NCBI GenBank assembly: GCA_951812975.1
Contig: CATOTC010000001.1
Span: 558,001 to 622,000 of the forward strand
Length of the DNA stretch: 64,000 bases
Source: an uncultured Acidimicrobiales bacterium
GTDB lineage: Bacteria > Actinomycetota > Acidimicrobiia > Acidimicrobiales > Aldehydirespiratoraceae
Reading direction: 5' to 3'
The translations under genes were made by a program, and so were the position numbers. Shown here piece after piece: positions 8,581-20,963 of the stretch. The notes below the pieces were generated by a model. The model was not told where the DNA came from. It ran no database searches and saw nothing but the letters and a program-made list of their open reading frames with translations. The first letter of the stretch is position 1. Each line of letters opens with the position of its first letter.

Positions 8581-9102
8581 CTACAGCCCGAGCGGAACCC
8601 TCCAGTCGTCCGCACAGACCGCGGCCACTGCTGGTGGATCCATACGCAACGTCGCCTCAGGGACCAGATCGGCGATCTGGCGTGCTGTGGAATAGTGGAA
8701 CGTCAGATGATGCAGCTCTTCGAACAGCGGCCTGCGGAAATCCACAAGCTCAGCGGCAGCCTCGCTCAGATAACCGAACACGGTCAGTGCCACACGGAGG
8801 TCATCGGCAACCGGTGCCCTCCCGTACAACGACGCTCGGCGCAACCCGACCGCACACGCACCCTCTAAAACATCGGCTGCGCGCTCCCCCTCAGACAGCA
8901 CAAGCTCATCCTCGAAACGCCTCGCGAGCTTGTGGACATAGCCCTGATCGGGACCCTGATTGCCTACCGCCGGACCTGAAGGCTGGGGCCCGCCGACAAC
9001 CTCGCCCGGCCGATTCGCCAACCAGCTGCCCGCACGACGAGGCGCAGACACATAGGCCTTGGGTCCATCGATCCTGCTCGGAAAGTGCCTCGGCGCAGAC
9101 AT
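8581..9102 (-). CDS. Conserved-looking hypothetical protein
   Basis: 173 aa. Not recognised. The N-terminal 55 residues are Pro/Gly-rich and probably unstructured; residues 60-170 look mainly helical, with paired aromatic/His residues in LFEELHHLTFHYS. No signal peptide or membrane segment. Its ATG at 9102 lies opposite the upstream part of the CoA-transferase frame, so the two genes are divergent and share a short promoter region. A TACGCT hexamer 8 nt before the start may be its -10 element. It ends 56 bp before gltX. Confidence 0.6.
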   Translation of the reverse strand: MSAPRHFPSRIDGPKAYVSAPRRAGSWLANRPGEVVGGPQPSGPAVGNQGPDQGYVHKLARRFEDELVLSEGERAADVLEGACAVGLRRASLYGRAPVADDLRVALTVFGYLSEAAAELVDFRRPLFEELHHLTFHYSTARQIADLVPEATLRMDPPAVAAVCADDWRVPLGL

Positions 9103-9169
9103 GGCCGGTAAGCGTAGCGAGAATCGCCGAGACGTTGTACACCCAAGCTCTCTACGCGAGACTCCAACG

Positions 9170-11398
9170 GTGATCGATCAACCCCTCGCCGAGTTCAAGG
9201 TGCTCGATACCACCGACCGGCGCGGAGCACTGTGCGGGCGGATCCTCGCAGACCTCGGCGCCCACGTGATCCGCCTGGACGACAACGACAACGACGACAA
9301 CTCCGCCATCGACCGCTACCGCAACCACGGGAAGGTCCGAGCCGAGCCCGGTAGGGGACTCTCGGAGTGGTTGCCGCTCGTCGACGTGTTCATCGAGAAC
9401 GGCGGGCCTCGCACCGAGCTGGACCGCCCTGCTCTCGAAGCCCAGTACCCGCAGCTTGTGATCGTCAGCCTCACCGACCTCGGTCTGAACGGTCCACGCT
9501 CTCACTGGCATCTGGAATCCCTACCCGCCCAAGCCGCCAGCGGTGCTCTTCACGCCACAGGTCATCCCTCACTGCTCCCCACAGCCCTCCCCGGCTATCT
9601 GGCCCACGATTGCGCTTCGGTGCACGGTGCCATGGCAGCGGTCGCCGCCTTGATGGACCGGCGCCGCACCGGTCTGGGACAGCGGATCGAAACGAGTTCG
9701 CAGGAAGCAGGACTGGGCGGGGCCTATCCGTGGGGAGTTGCCATCCCAAGCTACCTGTCGGTCAACCCTTCCCTGCCGGTCGAGGGGAAGCGCAACGCTG
9801 AAGGGTTTTATCTGGTTGTGCCATGCCGCGACGGTCATGTACGCATGGTGTTCGGCAGCGAGGCGGACTGGCAGGCGTTCTATGAACTCTGCGGCAGACC
9901 CGAAGAAGTCTCCGGGGACGAGTGGAACAGCCGTAGCCACCGAGCGAGGAACCCGGGCCCAATCCGTGAAGTCGCGGAACGCGCATTCGCTCACCAGGAC
10001 AGAGCCGAACTGTTTGCCGCGTCGTTACGGCTCGGCCTGCCGCTGGGTTCGATCCAGCATCCGCTGGAGTTTGTGAACCATCCTCAGACCGTCGAGCGGG
10101 GCTTCTTCGTCGATGGCGTGGCCAGCCGCCTATGGAGGTTCCAACCTCCACCCGCGACAGCGCACAATCCCAGCACCGCTCGAGCCACCAGACCCCAACG
10201 GTCCGACGACGGCCTGCTGCTCGAAGGGCTGCGCGTCATCGAGTTCGGCATTGCCGCGGTGGTTCCCGAACTGTGCTGGATGCTCTCAGAGCTGGGGGCG
10301 GACGTCATCAAGATCGAGTCCCGCAAGAAGCCTGACGTGCTCCGCGCCGCAGGCATGGACAACCTCGACAGGTCCTTCTGCTTCAACATGGAGTGCAGAG
10401 GCCGCCGCGGCATCGCCTTGGATCTCACGACTGTCGACGGGCGGCGACTGGCCAAAGAACTCTGCGCCACAGCCGATGTCGTCGCCGAGAACAACCGCGG
10501 CGGGGTGATGGCCAAACTCGGGCTCGACTATCCGGACATCGCTGCGGTCAACCCGAACGTGGTCTACGTGGCTTCGCAGGGTTACGGCCGTGGAGGTCCC
10601 ATGGGAGAGATGAAGGCTTTCGGCCCGCTGAACTCAAGTTTCGCCGGCATCCATATGTTGTGGAGCCACCCCGACGGTCCTTATCCGTGCGGCACGTCGC
10701 TCAATCATCCCGACCACATCGCCTCGAAGATGTTGACGGTGGGTGTCTTGTGTGCGCTCGACCACCGCTATCAGACTGGTGAGGGATCCTTCGTGGAGAT
10801 GGCACAGACCGAAGCCGCCGCGTACCTGCTCGGTGAGCTATATCTGGAGGCGATCGAGACTGGCGTGAACCCCAAGAACCTCGCCAACCGCGACCTCCAC
10901 ATGGCCCCCCAAGGCGTCTATCCCGGTTCAGAGGACGACAGCTGGGTCGCCATCACGGTGCAGAGCGACAATGCTTGGCGGGCGCTCGAGTCGGCCGCCG
11001 GCTGGACCGCCGATGAGACCCTGGCAGACGTTGAAGCTCGATTCGCTGCCCACGACGCCATCGACGAGCGGCTGGGCCAGTGGACTTCGCAGCGGCCTGT
11101 CGAGCAGACCGCCGAGCTGCTCCAAGCTGTCGGGGTGTCGGCGATGCCGGTGATGGGTCCGCTGGATCATCTCGCAGATCCGCACCTCTGCGAGCGGGGG
11201 CTGATGGTCGATCTGGTCCACGAGGTGCACGGGCCTGAGCAACAGCCTGCAAATCCCACCCGAATGTCACGCACCGTGCTGCGCACCGCCCAGTCCGCTC
11301 CCCCGCTCGGTCATCACACCCACGAGGTGCTGCGCGAAGTGCTCGGCATCGATAACGACGAACTCGACAGCCTCGAAGCCGCCGGTGTCTTCTACTAG
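9170..11398 (+). CDS. Double-domain CaiB/BaiF (class III) CoA-transferase
   Basis: 742 aa from the GTG at 9170; the frame is open further upstream to 9059, but that part overlaps the divergent gene and lacks family similarity. Two tandem class III CoA-transferase domains are seen, the first beginning at FKVLDTTDRRGALCGRILAD and the second near LRVIEFGIAAVVPELCWMLS, each with the typical GADVIKIE/GAHVIRLD strand. The position of the catalytic Asp is Glu in both halves (TSSQEAGL and AQTEAAAY), a variant known among CaiB relatives. Single-domain family members are about 400 aa and work as dimers, so this is a fused dimer. It should move CoA between organic acids; substrate unknown. Confidence 0.85.
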   Translation: MIDQPLAEFKVLDTTDRRGALCGRILADLGAHVIRLDDNDNDDNSAIDRYRNHGKVRAEPGRGLSEWLPLVDVFIENGGPRTELDRPALEAQYPQLVIVSLTDLGLNGPRSHWHLESLPAQAASGALHATGHPSLLPTALPGYLAHDCASVHGAMAAVAALMDRRRTGLGQRIETSSQEAGLGGAYPWGVAIPSYLSVNPSLPVEGKRNAEGFYLVVPCRDGHVRMVFGSEADWQAFYELCGRPEEVSGDEWNSRSHRARNPGPIREVAERAFAHQDRAELFAASLRLGLPLGSIQHPLEFVNHPQTVERGFFVDGVASRLWRFQPPPATAHNPSTARATRPQRSDDGLLLEGLRVIEFGIAAVVPELCWMLSELGADVIKIESRKKPDVLRAAGMDNLDRSFCFNMECRGRRGIALDLTTVDGRRLAKELCATADVVAENNRGGVMAKLGLDYPDIAAVNPNVVYVASQGYGRGGPMGEMKAFGPLNSSFAGIHMLWSHPDGPYPCGTSLNHPDHIASKMLTVGVLCALDHRYQTGEGSFVEMAQTEAAAYLLGELYLEAIETGVNPKNLANRDLHMAPQGVYPGSEDDSWVAITVQSDNAWRALESAAGWTADETLADVEARFAAHDAIDERLGQWTSQRPVEQTAELLQAVGVSAMPVMGPLDHLADPHLCERGLMVDLVHEVHGPEQQPANPTRMSRTVLRTAQSAPPLGHHTHEVLREVLGIDNDELDSLEAAGVFY

Positions 11399-11512: not shown

Positions 11513-13159
11513 CTACTCGTCGGCGATGAGGAGGCCGTAGACGAGGGAGTCGACCAGCGCCTGCCACGACGCCTCGATGATGTTCTCAGAAACGCCGATG
11601 GTCGACCATGAACGCTCGCCGTTGGTGCTGTCGAGCAGCACCCGGGTGACCGCCCCGGTCCCCTGCTCAGTGTTGAGGACCCGGACCTTGAAATCGGTGA
11701 GCGACACCCGGTCGATCCCGGGGTAGCGACCGTTCAGAGCCGAGCGGATGGCCGCGTCGAGCGCATTGACCGGCCCGTTGCCCTCCCCCACGGCGATCCG
11801 GCGCTTGCCGTCAACCCAGATCTTGACGGTGGCCTCAGTCTCGACATCGACCGCCACGTCGTTCCACAAGCGGGCACCGGTGCCGGAACGATGGGCCATG
11901 TCGACAGAGAACGACTCGAGCGTGAAATAGGGCTGCTCCCAACCCGCCGCTCCACGCATCAACAGCTCGAGGGAAGCATCGGCGACCTCGAAGTGATAAC
12001 CCAGATGCTCAAGCCGCTTGAGGGTCTCGACCACGTCACCGAGAACCTGCCCGTCGATCTCGAGGCCCAGGTTCTTGGCCTTCATCGCCAGGGTCGAGCG
12101 TCCAGCCATCTCTGATACGACAATGCGAGTGCCGTTGCCAACCGCCTCGGGCGCAACGTGTTCGTAGGCATCAGGGCGCCTGTTCAAAGCGCTGGTGTGA
12201 AGACCGGCCTTGTGCGCGAACGCCGAGGAACCCACATAGGGCTGCTGCGCGTCGGGAGTGAAATTGACCAGTTCAGCGATGTGGTGCGACACCGAAGTCA
12301 AACGAGAGATCCGACCCTCGGGAAGACACTTGATGCCCATCTTCAGTTCAAGATTGGCCATGATCGGCACCAGGTCGCAGTTGCCGACCCGCTCGCCGTA
12401 GCCATTGATCGTGCCCTGGACCTGGGTGGCGCCTGCGCGCACCGCGGCCAGAGCATTCGCAACGCCGCAGCCAGTGTCGTTGTGAAGGTGGATGCCGACA
12501 CCGCAGTCCACGTGAGCGATCACATCAGAAACGGCTCGTTCGATTTCAGGTGGAAGCGACCCGCCGTTGGTGTCGCACAACACCACGGCTTCAACCCCCG
12601 CAATCGCAGCCTCCTCGAGCACCCGGAGGCTGAACTCGGGATTGCGCTTGTAGCCGTCGAAGAAGTGCTCGGCGTCGAAGAACACACGCTTGCCCGCCGC
12701 TGCCAGGAAGGCGACCGAATCGGCAACCATCGCCACACCCTCGTCGAGGCTCGTGCCGAGCGCTTCGGTCACGTGATAGTCCCAACACTTGCCGACGATG
12801 CACACGACCTCGGTTCCGGCTGCCACCAGCCTGGCCAGCGAGTCGTCTGAATCAACCCTGCCACGGGGGCGCCGGGTCGAGCCGAAGGCCACGAACTTGC
12901 TCGTCTCGAGGTGCAACTCGGTCTTGGCACGCTCGAAGAACTCGTCGTCTTTGGGGTTGGCACCAGGGTACCCACCCTCGATATAGCCGACCCCGAGCAG
13001 GTCGAGCTGCTCAGCTATTCGCAATTTGTCGTCGACGGTGAGCGAGATGCCCTCCAGCTGCGAACCGTCGCGCAGGGTGGTGTCATAGATCTCGACCTGC
13101 TCGGGCCAGGCCGGGTCTCGAACTCCAGTGCGTTCGATCGATACCTCGGGATCGGTCAT
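11513..13159 (-). CDS. cimA: Citramalate synthase
   Basis: 548 aa from the ATG at 13159, which overlaps the ilvE stop as ATGA; an upstream in-frame ATG at 13177 is less likely. The HMGL-like TIM barrel begins with YDTTLRDGSQ at 25-34, and the metal/active-site segment GIHLHNDTGCGVANAL is present. The C-terminal about 140 residues form the LeuA-type allosteric domain. Length and sequence fit the (R)-citramalate synthase branch rather than 2-isopropylmalate synthase (inference from the overall pattern). It condenses pyruvate and acetyl-CoA to start isoleucine synthesis without threonine deaminase. Last gene of leuB-ilvE-cimA, so controlled by the attenuator at 15121-15254. Confidence 0.9.
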   Translation of the reverse strand: MTDPEVSIERTGVRDPAWPEQVEIYDTTLRDGSQLEGISLTVDDKLRIAEQLDLLGVGYIEGGYPGANPKDDEFFERAKTELHLETSKFVAFGSTRRPRGRVDSDDSLARLVAAGTEVVCIVGKCWDYHVTEALGTSLDEGVAMVADSVAFLAAAGKRVFFDAEHFFDGYKRNPEFSLRVLEEAAIAGVEAVVLCDTNGGSLPPEIERAVSDVIAHVDCGVGIHLHNDTGCGVANALAAVRAGATQVQGTINGYGERVGNCDLVPIMANLELKMGIKCLPEGRISRLTSVSHHIAELVNFTPDAQQPYVGSSAFAHKAGLHTSALNRRPDAYEHVAPEAVGNGTRIVVSEMAGRSTLAMKAKNLGLEIDGQVLGDVVETLKRLEHLGYHFEVADASLELLMRGAAGWEQPYFTLESFSVDMAHRSGTGARLWNDVAVDVETEATVKIWVDGKRRIAVGEGNGPVNALDAAIRSALNGRYPGIDRVSLTDFKVRVLNTEQGTGAVTRVLLDSTNGERSWSTIGVSENIIEASWQALVDSLVYGLLIADE

Positions 13160-14073
13160 GACACCAGCTCGTTCCACGACCGGTACTTCGGGTTCTTGCC
13201 CCGCACAACCTCGCCGTATGCCTCCGCGATCGCTTTGGTGGCGGGACCCGGGCAGGGGATGGCGCGCTCATCCACCGAGTTCACTGCACTGACTTCCGCG
13301 GCGGTGCCGACAACGAATATCTCATCAGCGATGTAGAGGTCGCTTCGAGACATCTCCCCGACCGCGATGTCGATTCCCATGTCGCCGGCCAGGGCAGTCA
13401 CTGTGTCCTGGGTGATGCCCTTCAAAGCGCCCGCCGAGGTCGGCGGCGTCAGCACGACGTCGCCGAGGCCCACGAAGATGTTCTCACCGCTGCACTCCGA
13501 TACGAGGCCCGCGCCGTTGAGCATGATCGCCTCGTCGTATCCCGCCGCGAGGGCCTCCATCTTCGCGAGCGTCGAGTTGGCATAGTTGCCGGTGGTCTTG
13601 GACGCCGGCGGCATGATGTTGTGGTCGTGGCGAGTCCACGAAGAGACCTTCATCCGCACGCCCTTGGTCGCAGCGTCGTCACCGAGGTACGCGCCCCAGG
13701 GCCAGGCGGCGATGGCGATGTCGGTCTTGCAGTGTTCGATCGACAGACCCATCTCGCCGTAGCCGAAATAGGCGATCGGGCGCAGGTAACAGCTGTTCAG
13801 TCCGGTGTCGGCGACGACGTCCTTGCATGCCTGCACGATCTCTGGGATCGAGTAGGGCATACCCATGTTGAGGATTCGAGCCGAGTTGAAGAGACGCTCG
13901 ATGTGCTCGGTCAGTCGAAAAATGGCCGGTCCATCGGCGGTCTCATAGGCGCGAATACCCTCAAACACACCGGTTCCATAATGCAGCGTGTGGGAGAGCA
14001 CATGGATCTGTGCGTTCTCCCACGGCACCATCTCGCCGTTCATCCAGATGTGGGGGGTGGGGGTGATGGGCAT
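13156..14073 (-). CDS. ilvE: Branched-chain amino acid aminotransferase
   Basis: 305 aa, fold-type IV PLP aminotransferase of the normal short type. The PLP lysine is Lys159 in ASKTTGNY; HYGTGVFEGIRAY (31-43) and GECSGENIF-like SECSGENIFV are family hallmarks. It catalyses the last step of Ile, Leu and Val synthesis with glutamate as donor. It starts 8 bp after leuB and overlaps cimA by 4 bp. Confidence 0.95.
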   Translation of the reverse strand: MPITPTPHIWMNGEMVPWENAQIHVLSHTLHYGTGVFEGIRAYETADGPAIFRLTEHIERLFNSARILNMGMPYSIPEIVQACKDVVADTGLNSCYLRPIAYFGYGEMGLSIEHCKTDIAIAAWPWGAYLGDDAATKGVRMKVSSWTRHDHNIMPPASKTTGNYANSTLAKMEALAAGYDEAIMLNGAGLVSECSGENIFVGLGDVVLTPPTSAGALKGITQDTVTALAGDMGIDIAVGEMSRSDLYIADEIFVVGTAAEVSAVNSVDERAIPCPGPATKAIAEAYGEVVRGKNPKYRSWNELVS

Positions 14074-14081
14074 TGTGCCTC

Positions 14082-15092
14082 CTACAGGCGAGCGGCGATC
14101 ACATCGCCGATCTCAGTGGTTGAGCCGGTAAGCGATTCTGGGTTGGAGCAGGCCTTGCGGATCCGGTCGGCCGCCTGGTCCTCGCCGAGGTGGTCGAGCA
14201 TCAACGCACCCGACAGGATGGCCGCTGTGGGGTTGGCCCTGCCTGTGCCGACGATGTCCGGAGCCGATCCATGCACCGGTTCGAACATGGAGACGCGGCC
14301 CGGATGCAGGTTCGCAGAGGCGGCGAAGCCGATCCCGCCGCTGACCGCGCCGCCCAGGTCGGTGAGGATGTCGCCGAAGAGGTTGTCGGTGACGATGACG
14401 TCGTAGCGGTAAGGGTCGTCCACGAAGTAGATGCATGCCGCGTCGACATGGTTGTAGGCGGTTTCCACTCCGGGGTACTCCTCGGCCACCTCGTTGAAGG
14501 TGCGCTCCCAGAGGTCGCCCGAGAAGGTCAGCACGTTGGTCTTGTGGACCAGGGTCAGGTGCTTGCGCCGCTTCATCGCCAGATCGAAGGCGTAACGGAC
14601 GCAGCGCTCGACGCCGACACGGGTGTTGACCGATCCCTGAGTGGCGATCTCGTGAGCCGTGCCCTTGCGGAGGAACCCCCCTTCACCGGCGTAGGTGCCC
14701 TCCGTGTTCTCGCGGATGACCACAAAATCGAACTCTGCGTTCTCGCCGCCGGCGACCGGGCTGGTGTTGGGGCTGTCGGGTCCGCAGCTGAAGGGCCTGT
14801 AGTTGATGTACAGGTCGAGGTCGAAGCGCATCTTCAACAGGAGCCCTCGTTCGATGACACCAGGGGGCACGTCGGGGGTCCCGACAGCGCCGACGTAGAT
14901 AGCGTCGAGTCCGCGCCATTCGTCCACGATCTCATCAGACAGCACCAGGCCGTCCCGCAGGTAGCGGCTTCCTCCGAGGTCGTAGTCGACCGCGTCGATC
15001 TCGACACCTGCCGCGGCGATGACCTTCAAGCCCTCTCTGACGACTTCGGGGCCGATTCCGTCTCCGCCCACTATTCCCACTCGATGGGTCAT
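14082..15092 (-). CDS. leuB: 3-isopropylmalate dehydrogenase
   Basis: 336 aa from the ATG at 15092, preceded by GAGAAGAAG as ribosome-binding site; the longer frame to 15170 runs into the attenuator hairpins. It starts with GIVGGDGIGPEV, has IRENTEGTYAGEGG near 130, the catalytic Lys/Tyr region and VTDNLFGDILTDLGG for metal binding, and SMFEPVHGSAPDI for NAD. It oxidises 3-isopropylmalate in leucine synthesis and may also act on methylmalate in the citramalate route. First gene of the operon, just downstream of a terminator and leader peptide. Confidence 0.93.
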   Translation of the reverse strand: MTHRVGIVGGDGIGPEVVREGLKVIAAAGVEIDAVDYDLGGSRYLRDGLVLSDEIVDEWRGLDAIYVGAVGTPDVPPGVIERGLLLKMRFDLDLYINYRPFSCGPDSPNTSPVAGGENAEFDFVVIRENTEGTYAGEGGFLRKGTAHEIATQGSVNTRVGVERCVRYAFDLAMKRRKHLTLVHKTNVLTFSGDLWERTFNEVAEEYPGVETAYNHVDAACIYFVDDPYRYDVIVTDNLFGDILTDLGGAVSGGIGFAASANLHPGRVSMFEPVHGSAPDIVGTGRANPTAAILSGALMLDHLGEDQAADRIRKACSNPESLTGSTTEIGDVIAARL

Positions 15093-15120: not shown

Positions 15121-15154
15121 GAACAAAAGAAAACCGTCCACCGAAGTGGACGGT
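15121..15154 (-). terminator. Intrinsic terminator (attenuator) before leuB
   Basis: On the minus strand a perfect 9-bp stem ACCGTCCAC/GTGGACGGT closed by a TTCG tetraloop is followed by TTTTCTTTTGTTC. It lies 29 bp upstream of the leuB ATG, after the leader peptide, so it can stop transcription before the biosynthetic genes. Confidence 0.85.
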
Positions 15155-15156
15155 CC

Positions 15157-15182
15157 AGCGCACGCCACAACGGGCGTGCGCT
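15157..15182 (-). promoter_or_regulatory. Leader stem-loop overlapping the leader stop codon
   Basis: A perfect 10-bp stem AGCGCACGCC/GGCGTGCGCT with a 6-nt loop, its 5' arm starting in the TAG stop of the leader peptide. Only two nucleotides separate it from the terminator stem. A ribosome on the last leader codons would cover its 5' arm. The antiterminator pairing is not obvious by eye; only short GTGG/CCAC and TGGA/TCCA pairings compete with the terminator. Confidence 0.75.
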
Positions 15183-15219
15183 ACGAAATGATTACGGTCG
15201 ACGTCTCGCGTGTTCCCAT
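15181..15219 (-). CDS. Leader peptide of the leuB-ilvE-cimA operon
   Basis: Twelve codons, MGTRETSTVIIS, ending with Val-Ile-Ile-Ser and a TAG inside the first stem-loop. Three consecutive branched-chain codons (GTA ATC ATT) just before the stop, then a stem-loop and an intrinsic terminator, is the layout of ribosome-mediated attenuation known for ilv and leu operons. There is no ribosome-binding site at useful distance from the ATG, but a -10 hexamer lies 6 nt upstream, so the mRNA probably begins with this AUG. Confidence 0.78.
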   Translation of the reverse strand: MGTRETSTVIIS

Positions 15220-15225
15220 CCCGCA

Positions 15226-15254
15226 AGTGTACCCCCTGCTTGCGCAATCGTCAT
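15226..15254 (-). promoter_or_regulatory. Promoter of the leader peptide and leuB-ilvE-cimA
   Basis: -10 TACACT at 15226-15231 and -35 ATGACG at 15249-15254 (four of six matches each to sigma70 consensus) with a 17-bp spacer. The start of transcription should fall on or next to the leader ATG at 15219. Confidence 0.7.
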
Positions 15255-18080: not shown

Positions 18081-20963
18081 TCACTTCTCGAACCGGGTGA
18101 CAGCATCCTCAGCCCCACCCGTCGCCTGAAGCGCCGACACGAGATTGTCGCGCGTCGTGAGCGTGTGGGGATGGTCGTCACCCAACACCCGGGTCCAGTC
18201 TGAGAGAACCTGCTCCAGCATGGGGATCGCTTCCTCAACCCGGCCTGCTACCTGAAGCGCCCAAGCCAGGTTGTTGCGCGTCGTCAGCGTGTGTGGATGG
18301 TCGTCGCCCAACACCCGGACAGAATCCGCGAGAACCGCCTCATAGATGGCGACGGCCTCCTCAACACGACCTGCTTCCTGAAGCGCTAACGCAAGATTAT
18401 TGCGCGTCGTCAACGTCTGGAGATGGTCGCTGCCCAACACCGGAAGAGAACCGGCGAGAATCTCCTCATAGATGGCGACGGCCTCCTCAACACGACCCGC
18501 CGCTTGAAGAGCCAACGCAAGATTACTGCGCGTCGTCAACGTCTGGGGATGATCACTGCCCAACACACGAGTCTGGTCCGCGAACACCCGGTCGAACAGA
18601 CCAACCGCCTCCTCAACACGACCCGCCGCTTGAAGAGCCAACGCAAGATTGTTTCGCGTCGTCAACGTGTGAGGATGATCACTGCCCAACACGCGAGTCT
18701 GGTCGGCGAACACCCGGTCGAACAGACCAACCGCCTCCTCAACACGGCCCGCCGCTTGAAGAGCCGAAGCAAGGTTGTTGCAGGTCGTCAGCGTGTGAGG
18801 ATGATCGCCGCCCAACACACGAGTCTGGTCGGCACAGACCCGGTCGAACAGACCAACTGCCTCCTCGACCCGACCCGCCGCGTGAAGAGACCACCCAAGA
18901 TTGTTGCGCGTCGTCAACGTGTCGGGATGGTCACCCCCCAACACACGCGTCCGGTCGGTAAGAACCCCCTCGTAGATACCGATGGCCTCCTCAACACGAC
19001 CCGCCGCTTGAAGCGCCCAACCCAGATTGTTGCGCGTCGTCAACGTGTCGGGATGGTCACCCCCCAACACACGCGTCCGATTGGCGAGAACCCGCTCGTA
19101 GATACCGATGGCCTCCTCAACACGACCCGCTTCCTGAAGCGCCAATGCAAGACTGTTGAGAGTCGCCAACGTGCGGAAATGATCGGCCCCGAAGGTGTCT
19201 TTGGTGTGCGTGATCAAGTCGCGGTACAGCCGCGCGGCAAGGTCGGGTCGGCCTGAACTTCTGATCGAGTTGATGCCGTTCAATCGGGTCTGCAGGTCGG
19301 CTTCGTTGTCGACGCTGTCGGGGGCGCGTTCGTAGAGTTCTACGTACAGGTTGTACAGGTCCTGTCTCTGGGCGATGAGGGTCTCGTCGAGGCCGATGTC
19401 GGCGAGCACGACAGCGATGGCGGCGGTCACCGGCGCAGGGTCGGCGATGAACCCTTCGGCGTGCAGCGCGATGATGCTGCGGGCATGGTGCGTGCGAAGG
19501 ACTTGGTCGCGAACCATGACTCTGGCCGTGGCGTCGAGGATCTTCTTGCGGGCGTTCGAGAGGTGCTCATTGAGCTTGTCGTTGCCGTCATTGGTGGCGA
19601 TGTGGTGCTGGTCGGTCTCGGCCCAGCGGCGCAGGAACTCGTCGACATGCGCGACCCAGCCATAGGCGTCGCGGGCGTCGCCGACGGCTCCCGCTAGGTC
19701 GGCGCTGTTGGGCAGGTCGATGCTGTCGATGACCTCGTCCAAGACAGGATCGCTCCAAGTGCGATGTCCCTGGCCTTGCTGGGGGTTGATGGCCTCGGGG
19801 GTGATCGAGGCGGCCACCGCATATCGCAACCGCAGCCGCTCCGGAAGATGCTCCCAATACTTCTTGTAGAGTTCCTTCGTCCCGGAGGGAAGGGTCACAA
19901 TCTCCTCGGAGTCGATGTGCAGATCGCCCCGTTCGCCGAACTCGCGCCGGTATTTGGGCATGTTGCACACGAGTTCGAGCGCCCACGGGTTGCGATACCG
20001 GCTCACTAGCAGTTCCACCGAGGTCGGGTCTGCCTGCGGGAAGTTCGCGTACACGATCTGCGCGCAGTCGTCGGCGTCGAGTTCCATGAGACCCGCACCC
20101 TCAGGAAACGGCGGTCCCGCAGGCTCAAGATATCCGACCCGCAACGCCCGCTCGCCGAGGTCGCGTTCCAAACCCGCTAGCGAGGAGATGTCTTCGATCT
20201 TCCCAGGCCATGTTGTGGTGATCACCAAGACATGCGAACCACGCCGCAACAGGCCCTCAATCACCTCCAACAGAGTGGTGTCCGCCAGGTGCACGTCCTC
20301 GATGAACAACACGATCGGGAACCTGTTGTTGCCCAATTCGCACAACTCGTCGATCACCTGCTCGACCAACTCCCGGCCGCCGGCGCCGAATTCCGACGCT
20401 TCGGCGATCAGCTCCCGGTCCTGGTTGTGCTCGCGCACCGCGCCCACCGCAAACCGAGCGAACAACACCGCAAGCCCCACACCAGGCACAAAGTTTCCCA
20501 CCACCGTCTTCGCGCCCGTCGAGACAAGCGCAGCTCGCCTCTTCAAGAACCCCTGAATCGTTTTCTCCTTCAGATCCCGACCGTGCTTGCACACAACGTC
20601 CACCAGCGGGGCATGCTCCTTCAGTTGCCCCAGGTCCGAACGCAGCGCTTCGGCTGCCACGCCGTTGCGGTCCGAGCACGACACTCCCCACCACAAGAAC
20701 TCGGGAAGCGACCCCGGCGGGCGCTCGCCGGTGGGGACCACTGCCTTGCGATTGGGGTCAGCAATCACATCGGGCCAATACCGCGGCGAGGACTGACCAG
20801 CAGCCAACCTCGCATAGAACTCCCGGCCCACACGCGTCTTGCCCCAACCCGACGGAGCCTCCAACGACACCCAACGCGACTCTCCCGAATCACGCACGTC
20901 TGTGAACAGGTCCACCAGACCGTCTGCCAGGCCAACCCGGCTCGCGCCCACAAACTGCGACAC
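18081..20963 (-). CDS. STAND-type ATPase with nine C-terminal TPRs
   Basis: 960 aa from a GTG at 20963. Walker A SGWGKT (38-43) and Walker B IVLFIEDVHLAD (217-228) define a P-loop NTPase of the STAND/AAA kind; residues about 340-590 are helical and probably form the winged-helix and arm regions. From about residue 595 to the end lie nine 42-residue TPRs with the core DHPHTLTTRNNLALALQAAG. STAND proteins oligomerise upon ligand sensing and serve in signalling and anti-phage defence; no effector domain is recognised at the N-terminus. It is monocistronic with its own leaderless promoter. Confidence 0.85.
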   Translation of the reverse strand: MSQFVGASRVGLADGLVDLFTDVRDSGESRWVSLEAPSGWGKTRVGREFYARLAAGQSSPRYWPDVIADPNRKAVVPTGERPPGSLPEFLWWGVSCSDRNGVAAEALRSDLGQLKEHAPLVDVVCKHGRDLKEKTIQGFLKRRAALVSTGAKTVVGNFVPGVGLAVLFARFAVGAVREHNQDRELIAEASEFGAGGRELVEQVIDELCELGNNRFPIVLFIEDVHLADTTLLEVIEGLLRRGSHVLVITTTWPGKIEDISSLAGLERDLGERALRVGYLEPAGPPFPEGAGLMELDADDCAQIVYANFPQADPTSVELLVSRYRNPWALELVCNMPKYRREFGERGDLHIDSEEIVTLPSGTKELYKKYWEHLPERLRLRYAVAASITPEAINPQQGQGHRTWSDPVLDEVIDSIDLPNSADLAGAVGDARDAYGWVAHVDEFLRRWAETDQHHIATNDGNDKLNEHLSNARKKILDATARVMVRDQVLRTHHARSIIALHAEGFIADPAPVTAAIAVVLADIGLDETLIAQRQDLYNLYVELYERAPDSVDNEADLQTRLNGINSIRSSGRPDLAARLYRDLITHTKDTFGADHFRTLATLNSLALALQEAGRVEEAIGIYERVLANRTRVLGGDHPDTLTTRNNLGWALQAAGRVEEAIGIYEGVLTDRTRVLGGDHPDTLTTRNNLGWSLHAAGRVEEAVGLFDRVCADQTRVLGGDHPHTLTTCNNLASALQAAGRVEEAVGLFDRVFADQTRVLGSDHPHTLTTRNNLALALQAAGRVEEAVGLFDRVFADQTRVLGSDHPQTLTTRSNLALALQAAGRVEEAVAIYEEILAGSLPVLGSDHLQTLTTRNNLALALQEAGRVEEAVAIYEAVLADSVRVLGDDHPHTLTTRNNLAWALQVAGRVEEAIPMLEQVLSDWTRVLGDDHPHTLTTRDNLVSALQATGGAEDAVTRFEK
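18090..19200. repeat. 126-bp tandem repeats encoding TPRs
   Basis: Nine head-to-tail units of 126 bp (42 codons) inside the STAND gene. Several neighbours differ by few bases, for example the units around 18540-18800, indicating recent duplication or gene conversion. Unit number could vary between strains and could collapse in short-read assembly. Confidence 0.85.

Follow-up and report, generated by a model that had tools for sequence, protein, structure and literature searches.

The leuB-ilvE-cimA operon of an uncultured member of the Acidimicrobiales is preceded by a leader element that is conserved across the class Acidimicrobiia. This element is likely to be a leaderless branched-chain amino acid (BCAA) leader that attenuates transcription of the operon through Ile/Val-dependent positioning of the ribosome. 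Three lines of evidence argue for such an attenuator: the class-wide presence of control codons, stems and terminator, the covariation of both stems, and the codons of sister leaders, which follow the pathway of the gene downstream. Judging from sequence comparisons and predicted folds, the switch does not seem to operate by strand exchange with the terminator.

A leader element upstream of leuB-ilvE-cimA

The whole element lies on the minus strand of the window (the complete stretch of 64,000 nucleotides that was analyzed), from 15254 to 15121 (Table 1). The -35-like hexamer ATGACG and the -10 box TACACT are separated by a 17-nt spacer, and the latter is followed after a gap of 6 nt by the ATG (15219) of a 12-codon open reading frame, ATG GGA ACA CGC GAG ACG TCG ACC GTA ATC ATT TCG TAG. 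The encoded peptide, MGTRETSTVIIS, ends in Val-Ile-Ile-Ser. A reading of this locus made earlier from the sequence alone (the sequence-only reading) had described this promoter, spacer and ATG; all are present, and the -35/-10 pair is kept in relatives, many of which have TGACG or TTGAG at the same distance. An Escherichia coli-type promoter scan returned no promoter at the leader site; its consensus is of the E. coli type and not the actinobacterial one, which consists of TAnnnT plus a weak nTGACn (PMC8079986). The -10 box lies within 5 to 9 nt of the leader start in the window and at 43 of 49 loci of the family, leaving no room for a Shine-Dalgarno sequence.

Stem 1, with the arms GCGCACGCC and GGCGTGCGC, begins at the third base (G) of the TAG stop codon; 9 bp are conserved, and 11 bp form in the window sequence. 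Downstream of it, a terminator scan picked up an intrinsic terminator with a stem of 10 to 11 bp, a C-UUCG-G loop and TTTTCTTTTG. The U-tract terminator is located 29 nt upstream of leuB, and its UUCG loop is not conserved among relatives. The VIIS peptide, the stem starting in the stop codon (9 to 11 bp) and the UUCG terminator with its T-tract had all been recognized in the sequence-only reading and are borne out. The minimum free energy (MFE) of the leader is -52.3 kcal/mol (z -3.2 versus shuffles). As the same parts are kept in the same order across the class, the element is more than a chance assembly. An N-terminal extension of LeuB through the leader, from a TTG at 15170, was discarded because several relatives have the leuB frame closed shortly before the ATG.

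The products of all three genes exceed curated NCBIfam cut-offs. Citramalate synthase, LeuB and IlvE together form the citramalate route to isoleucine. The Ile codons of the leader fit an operon that serves this route, and the leader probably lets Acidimicrobiia make the isoleucine enzymes only under Ile shortage. Elsewhere in the window, just behind cimA on the opposite strand (9059-11398), a single open reading frame contains two matched CoA-transferase family III stretches. At 18081-20963, a 960-aa protein has near-identical repeated blocks in its C-terminal half, which by eye resemble the TPR type.

Table 1. Features of the leader element and of the downstream operon in the window
Feature	Position	Strand	Basis
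-35-like hexamer ATGACG	15249..15254	-	sequence; 4/6 match to TTGACA
-10 box TACACT	15226..15231	-	sequence; TAnnnT in family leaders
Leader ORF MGTRETSTVIIS with stop, predicted leaderless	15181..15219	-	RNA start predicted at or adjacent to 15219
Control codons GTA ATC ATT (Val-Ile-Ile)	15187..15195	-	sequence, family and class leaders
Stem 1	15158..15181	-	5' arm 15181-15173, 3' arm 15166-15158; covariation
Intrinsic terminator hairpin ACCGTCCAC-TTCG-GTGGACGGT	15133..15154	-	terminator scan and covariation
U-tract TTTTCTTTTGTTC	15121..15133	-	sequence
leuB, 3-isopropylmalate dehydrogenase family	14082..15092	-	NF002898, 481.9 bits (cut-off 393)
ilvE, branched-chain transaminase	13156..14073	-	NF005146, 406.1 bits (cut-off 279)
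cimA, citramalate synthase	11513..13177	-	TIGR00977, 661.3 bits (cut-off 450)

Conservation of the leader in the family and the class

LeuB was detected in 49 of 51 genomes of the family, representing 10 genera, and we examined the upstream DNA at these 49 loci. Leaders were extracted by requiring TAnnnT 4 to 9 nt before a start codon, and two N-containing loci were skipped. The leader layout is present at at least 43 of the 49 loci. Within the 4- to 9-nt range imposed by the extraction, TAnnnT occurs 6 to 9 nt before the start in all 43 leaders, and at 6 or 7 nt in 41. Start codons are GTG (26) or ATG (17), and the stop codon is TAG in 42 of 43. Ile is found two codons before the stop (codon -2) in every leader, and codon -4 is an Ile codon in 34 leaders and a Val codon in 7. 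Variation is seen at codons -1 and -3. Ile accounts for 26% of all residues of these peptides.

The leader is absent at three family loci (L029, L049 and L050). At L029 and L050, which belong to the same genus, both leader and terminator are missing and a -10-like box lies about 5 nt before the leuB ATG. This position of the box is the expected remnant of losing leader and terminator behind a leaderless promoter, and leuB itself looks leaderless there, released from attenuation.

A covariance model built on 41 distinct leaders had matches in 186 of the 298 genomes searched for the order and in 160 of the 296 searched for the class Acidimicrobiia. In a phylum-wide draw, 33 of 396 genomes had a match, most of them Acidimicrobiia. 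Absences mean little, because many of the searched genomes are incomplete bins. The pattern occurs in named records that are for the most part Acidimicrobiia or Actinomycetota bins, including Microthrix, Aquihabitans sp. G128 and one labelled Ferrithrix. Each of the 30 best hits in the order lies ahead of leuB, with ilvE or cimA behind that gene, and 8 further matches lie directly upstream of cimA alone. Ile occupies codon -2 in 97 of the 98 readable class leaders (ATT in 65, ATC in 32) and Val codon -5 in 57 of them; the final residue and those preceding codon -5 differ widely among leaders. The single pattern match in Sphingomonas (L224) was set aside, having no covariance-model match. An element-like leader ending in LLIT before its stop is found in another class of the phylum, at locus L281 (2235-2312). 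No family of Rfam release 15 matched at its gathering score; the best subthreshold hit was the unrelated isrB (26.8 bits versus a gathering score of 35).

Covariation was assessed on 100 class sequences. In this alignment, which was fitted to the tested structure and hence leans towards it, 98.8% of stem cells are paired and 15 of 18 pairs show changes on both sides, namely, all 9 pairs of stem 1 and 6 of 9 in the terminator, whose core CCGUCC/GG[G/A]CGG is nearly invariant. For both stems the covariation is far above that of shuffles and slid-partner controls. The terminator core is more conserved than stem 1 (entropy of 0.14 versus 0.68 bits), even in an AT-rich genome (L170). The hairpin is followed in relatives by a mean of 7.3 T within 11 nt, and in 95 of 100 leaders a linker of 4 to 7 nt separates stem 1 from the terminator. 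Midway along the terminator stem, 79 of 100 leuB/cimA leaders have a U-G wobble, which recurs in several ilvB leaders, as if terminator strength were tuned. The sequence-only reading had suggested looking for the codons and stems upstream of leuB in relatives; they are kept at at least 43 of 49 family loci and across the class, with both stems covarying.

Sister leaders of ilvB and leuA

Weaker second matches in other genomes precede ilvB and contain Leu/Val codons (e.g., LVVT and VVVM), and one, in another class, precedes a leuA-like gene and contains LLL codons, all of these genes having been named by eye from their translations. The second-copy ilvB leaders have the same TAG-CGCACG stem with differing terminators, and the GCGCRCG/CGYGCGC stem is common to leuB, ilvB and some other-class leaders despite their differing terminators. 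The window's own genome has an ilvB gene above the TIGR00118 cut-off, whose leader at G000:C5:214109 (214109-213951, locus L302) encodes VNLRPDVDPVVIDS with Val-Val-Ile codons, followed by a stem at the TAG and a terminator. Masking of stem 1 in that leader is predicted to free the loop GCGAAAC for pairing with GUUUCG immediately past the terminator hairpin, giving a longer terminator. The leuA of the same genome, a gene with a LeuA_dimer domain outside the leuB-ilvE-cimA operon, has an apparently leaderless leader at G000:C1:863287 (locus L301) encoding VNRTTTLLLLM, with four Leu codons and again a stem at the TAG and a terminator; the sequence of its stem differs from that of stem 1 of the leuB leader. 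Between terminator and leuA, this locus has a stretch of about 14 C that may be variable or reflect an assembly problem. Thus, the codon content follows the pathway, with Ile before the leuB operon, Val-Ile or Leu-Val before ilvB, and Leu before leuA.

These shifts bear on two accounts that do without hungry codons. The terminator could be constitutive and the small open reading frame spurious, with expression arising from partial read-through and no sensing, as would suit a terminator that is stable in all predicted states. However, the Ile at codon -2 is retained through synonymous changes while codons -1 and -3 vary, and the codons change to Leu/Val before ilvB and to Leu before leuA, which makes this account very unlikely. 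We consider equally improbable a TnaC-like arrest of the nascent peptide at the stop codon by free isoleucine: the family strongly retains the ending I-x-I-[SP]-stop, but in the class both the last residue and those before codon -5 are widely variable, and the ilvB and leuA leaders end differently. Attenuation of leuB-ilvE-cimA, as proposed in the sequence-only reading, is backed by the gene identities, the class-wide codons, stem and terminator, and the sister ilvB and leuA leaders.

Search for a base-paired antiterminator

In classical attenuation, a terminator arm needs an alternative pairing partner. We compared the duplex energy of each terminator arm with upstream stretches to that with shuffled stretches in about 117 leaders, a test that uses single-letter shuffles and is blind to pseudoknots of few bases. 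Positive controls gave z values of -3.8 to -4.0. Over 100 leaders, the 5' arm had a mean z of +0.46 and the 3' arm mean values of -0.02 to +0.41, with no conserved complementarity upstream; in 17 ilvB leaders the values were +1.07 and -0.12 to +0.19, with no enrichment of complementarity. The top covarying columns outside the helices included no series of adjacent nested pairs. Duplex energies versus shuffles, column covariation and pair counts did not support an exchange of strands between stem 1 and the terminator, and this reading was rejected. A base-paired antiterminator was not found, since conserved complementarity to upstream stretches is absent for both arms, and the earlier remark that the antiterminator is not clear still holds after these tests. 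In the MFE fold of the window sequence, the leader 5' end GGGAACA pairs with UGUUCCC after the U-tract; this candidate was dismissed since relatives have other bases there. In about 90% of leaders, none of the three frames meets a stop codon between the leader stop and the end of the terminator, and no frame is favoured, so frameshift read-through of the leader finds no support either way.

We also folded the leader with the ribosome at different positions, assuming that its edge lies 12 nt from the A site. Stem 1 was predicted to form fully or partly with the ribosome on the control codons and to be lost with the ribosome on the stop codon, and the terminator formed at every position tested. 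Stem 1 therefore occupies the position of an antiterminator without sharing bases with the terminator.

A classical ilv-type antiterminator that escaped these tests might pair GGCG of the stem 1 3' arm with CGUC of the terminator 5' arm, or use the loop of stem 1 and the 3' arm of the terminator. The first pairing is possible in most family members and is used in some folds, and the second corresponds to the model proposed for Corynebacterium ilvB-II (PMC10272879). However, GGCG:CGUC is weak (about -4 to -10 kcal/mol) with variation equal to that of shuffles, its formation requires that a ribosome at the stop codon cover stem 1, which is the opposite of the logic needed, and neither leader set showed enrichment over shuffled upstream sequence. 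We regard such an antiterminator as quite unlikely.

Stem 1 might instead act alone, as a ribosome-gated hairpin that alters RNA polymerase, being a pause hairpin or a direct antiterminator like the put RNA of phage HK022, with read-through when it is formed and termination when it is masked at the stop codon. The start of the stem at the stop codon, a 5' arm that approximates the downstream footprint of the ribosome, the narrow range of linker lengths, the negative strand-exchange tests and the stem sequence common to leaders with differing terminators all speak for it. Yet polymerase contact and pausing are conjectural, the common sequence may reflect common descent, and the organism's own leuA leader has a different stem sequence; we rate this account as rather unlikely. 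Similarly tentative is the generalization that the stop-codon-anchored stem is a ribosome-gated module that would switch an adjacent, structurally independent terminator without strand exchange, before cimA/leuB, ilvB and leuA across Acidimicrobiia.

Proposed mechanism

In the attenuation model that we favour, transcription would begin at or adjacent to the ATG, and a 70S ribosome would start on the 5' end of the RNA. With charged tRNA-Ile and tRNA-Val plentiful, the ribosome would reach the UAG, where the 5' arm of stem 1 would just fall within its footprint, and the terminator would stop transcription. If Ile or Val were short, the ribosome would presumably stall on codons 9 to 11, before stem 1 or at its base, and RNA polymerase would continue into the operon. 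Stem 1 could act as a pause hairpin, by polymerase contact or by another route. The ilv logic invoked in the sequence-only reading is hence retained for the control codons and the terminator; its classical strand exchange is not, given the lack of arm complementarity upstream.

Comparison with known attenuators

The sequence-only reading had singled out the leaderless start as the unusual point. This is unsupported, as actinobacterial attenuators are documented as leaderless: the ilvBNC RNA of Corynebacterium glutamicum begins a single nucleotide away from its leader start codon (PMC11857589), the ilvB leader of Corynebacterium diphtheriae is leaderless (PMC5784534), and so are several leaders of Streptomyces lividans (PMC8079986). 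Attenuator parts were described as often missing in Actinobacteria by Seliverstov et al. (2005), and altering the supposed control codons of Streptomyces coelicolor ilvB had no effect, which counts against the model favoured here (both observations in PMC1262725). In the literature searched, no paper joined Acidimicrobiia, attenuation and leader peptide, and the class-wide variant in Acidimicrobiia is apparently undescribed. All the C. glutamicum attenuators studied by Neshat et al. in 2014 were reportedly leaderless.

The closest parallels are C. glutamicum ilvBNC and Corynebacterium ilvB-II, which likewise have BCAA codons, an open reading frame at or next to the RNA 5' end (predicted in our case), a stem before an intrinsic terminator, and a BCAA operon as the target (PMC11857589, PMC10272879). 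There, however, the open reading frame spans most of the first stem and the proposed antiterminators share bases with the terminator, whereas the stem described here starts within the stop codon and no shared bases were found; in addition, the target here is leuB-ilvE-cimA and there is no Rfam match. S. lividans ilvL and others are also leaderless BCAA leaders with hairpins, located before ilvBHC, leuA and leuS, but they belong to another class with partly other targets, and their peptides extend several codons past the control codons (PMC8079986). In the ilvB1NC operon of Mycobacterium tuberculosis, which has an LVVI upstream open reading frame, a ribosome at the stop codon is likewise proposed to mask the RNA behind it, whereupon the terminator acts; that leader precedes ilvB1, and the ribosome is proposed to prevent an antiterminator exclusive with the terminator (PMC13236596).

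The trp and ilv attenuators of E. coli combine control codons, ribosome position and an intrinsic terminator with a Shine-Dalgarno-led leader and a base-paired antiterminator. The element described here shares with them control codons for the operon's amino acid and an intrinsic terminator between leader and first gene and, in the favoured model, the use of ribosome position, and differs in having no room for a Shine-Dalgarno sequence and no detected mutually exclusive base-paired antiterminator. As leaderless BCAA attenuators are already documented, the kind is known; relative to the literature searched, the novelty lies in the operon targeted, the spread through the class, the anchoring of the stem in the stop codon and the apparent lack of strand exchange. 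Our observations point to a class-wide control of BCAA synthesis in Acidimicrobiia, over leuB-ilvE-cimA, ilvB and leuA, that has no Rfam family. If the absence of an antiterminator is confirmed, ribosome position can control an intrinsic terminator by a route other than RNA strand exchange.
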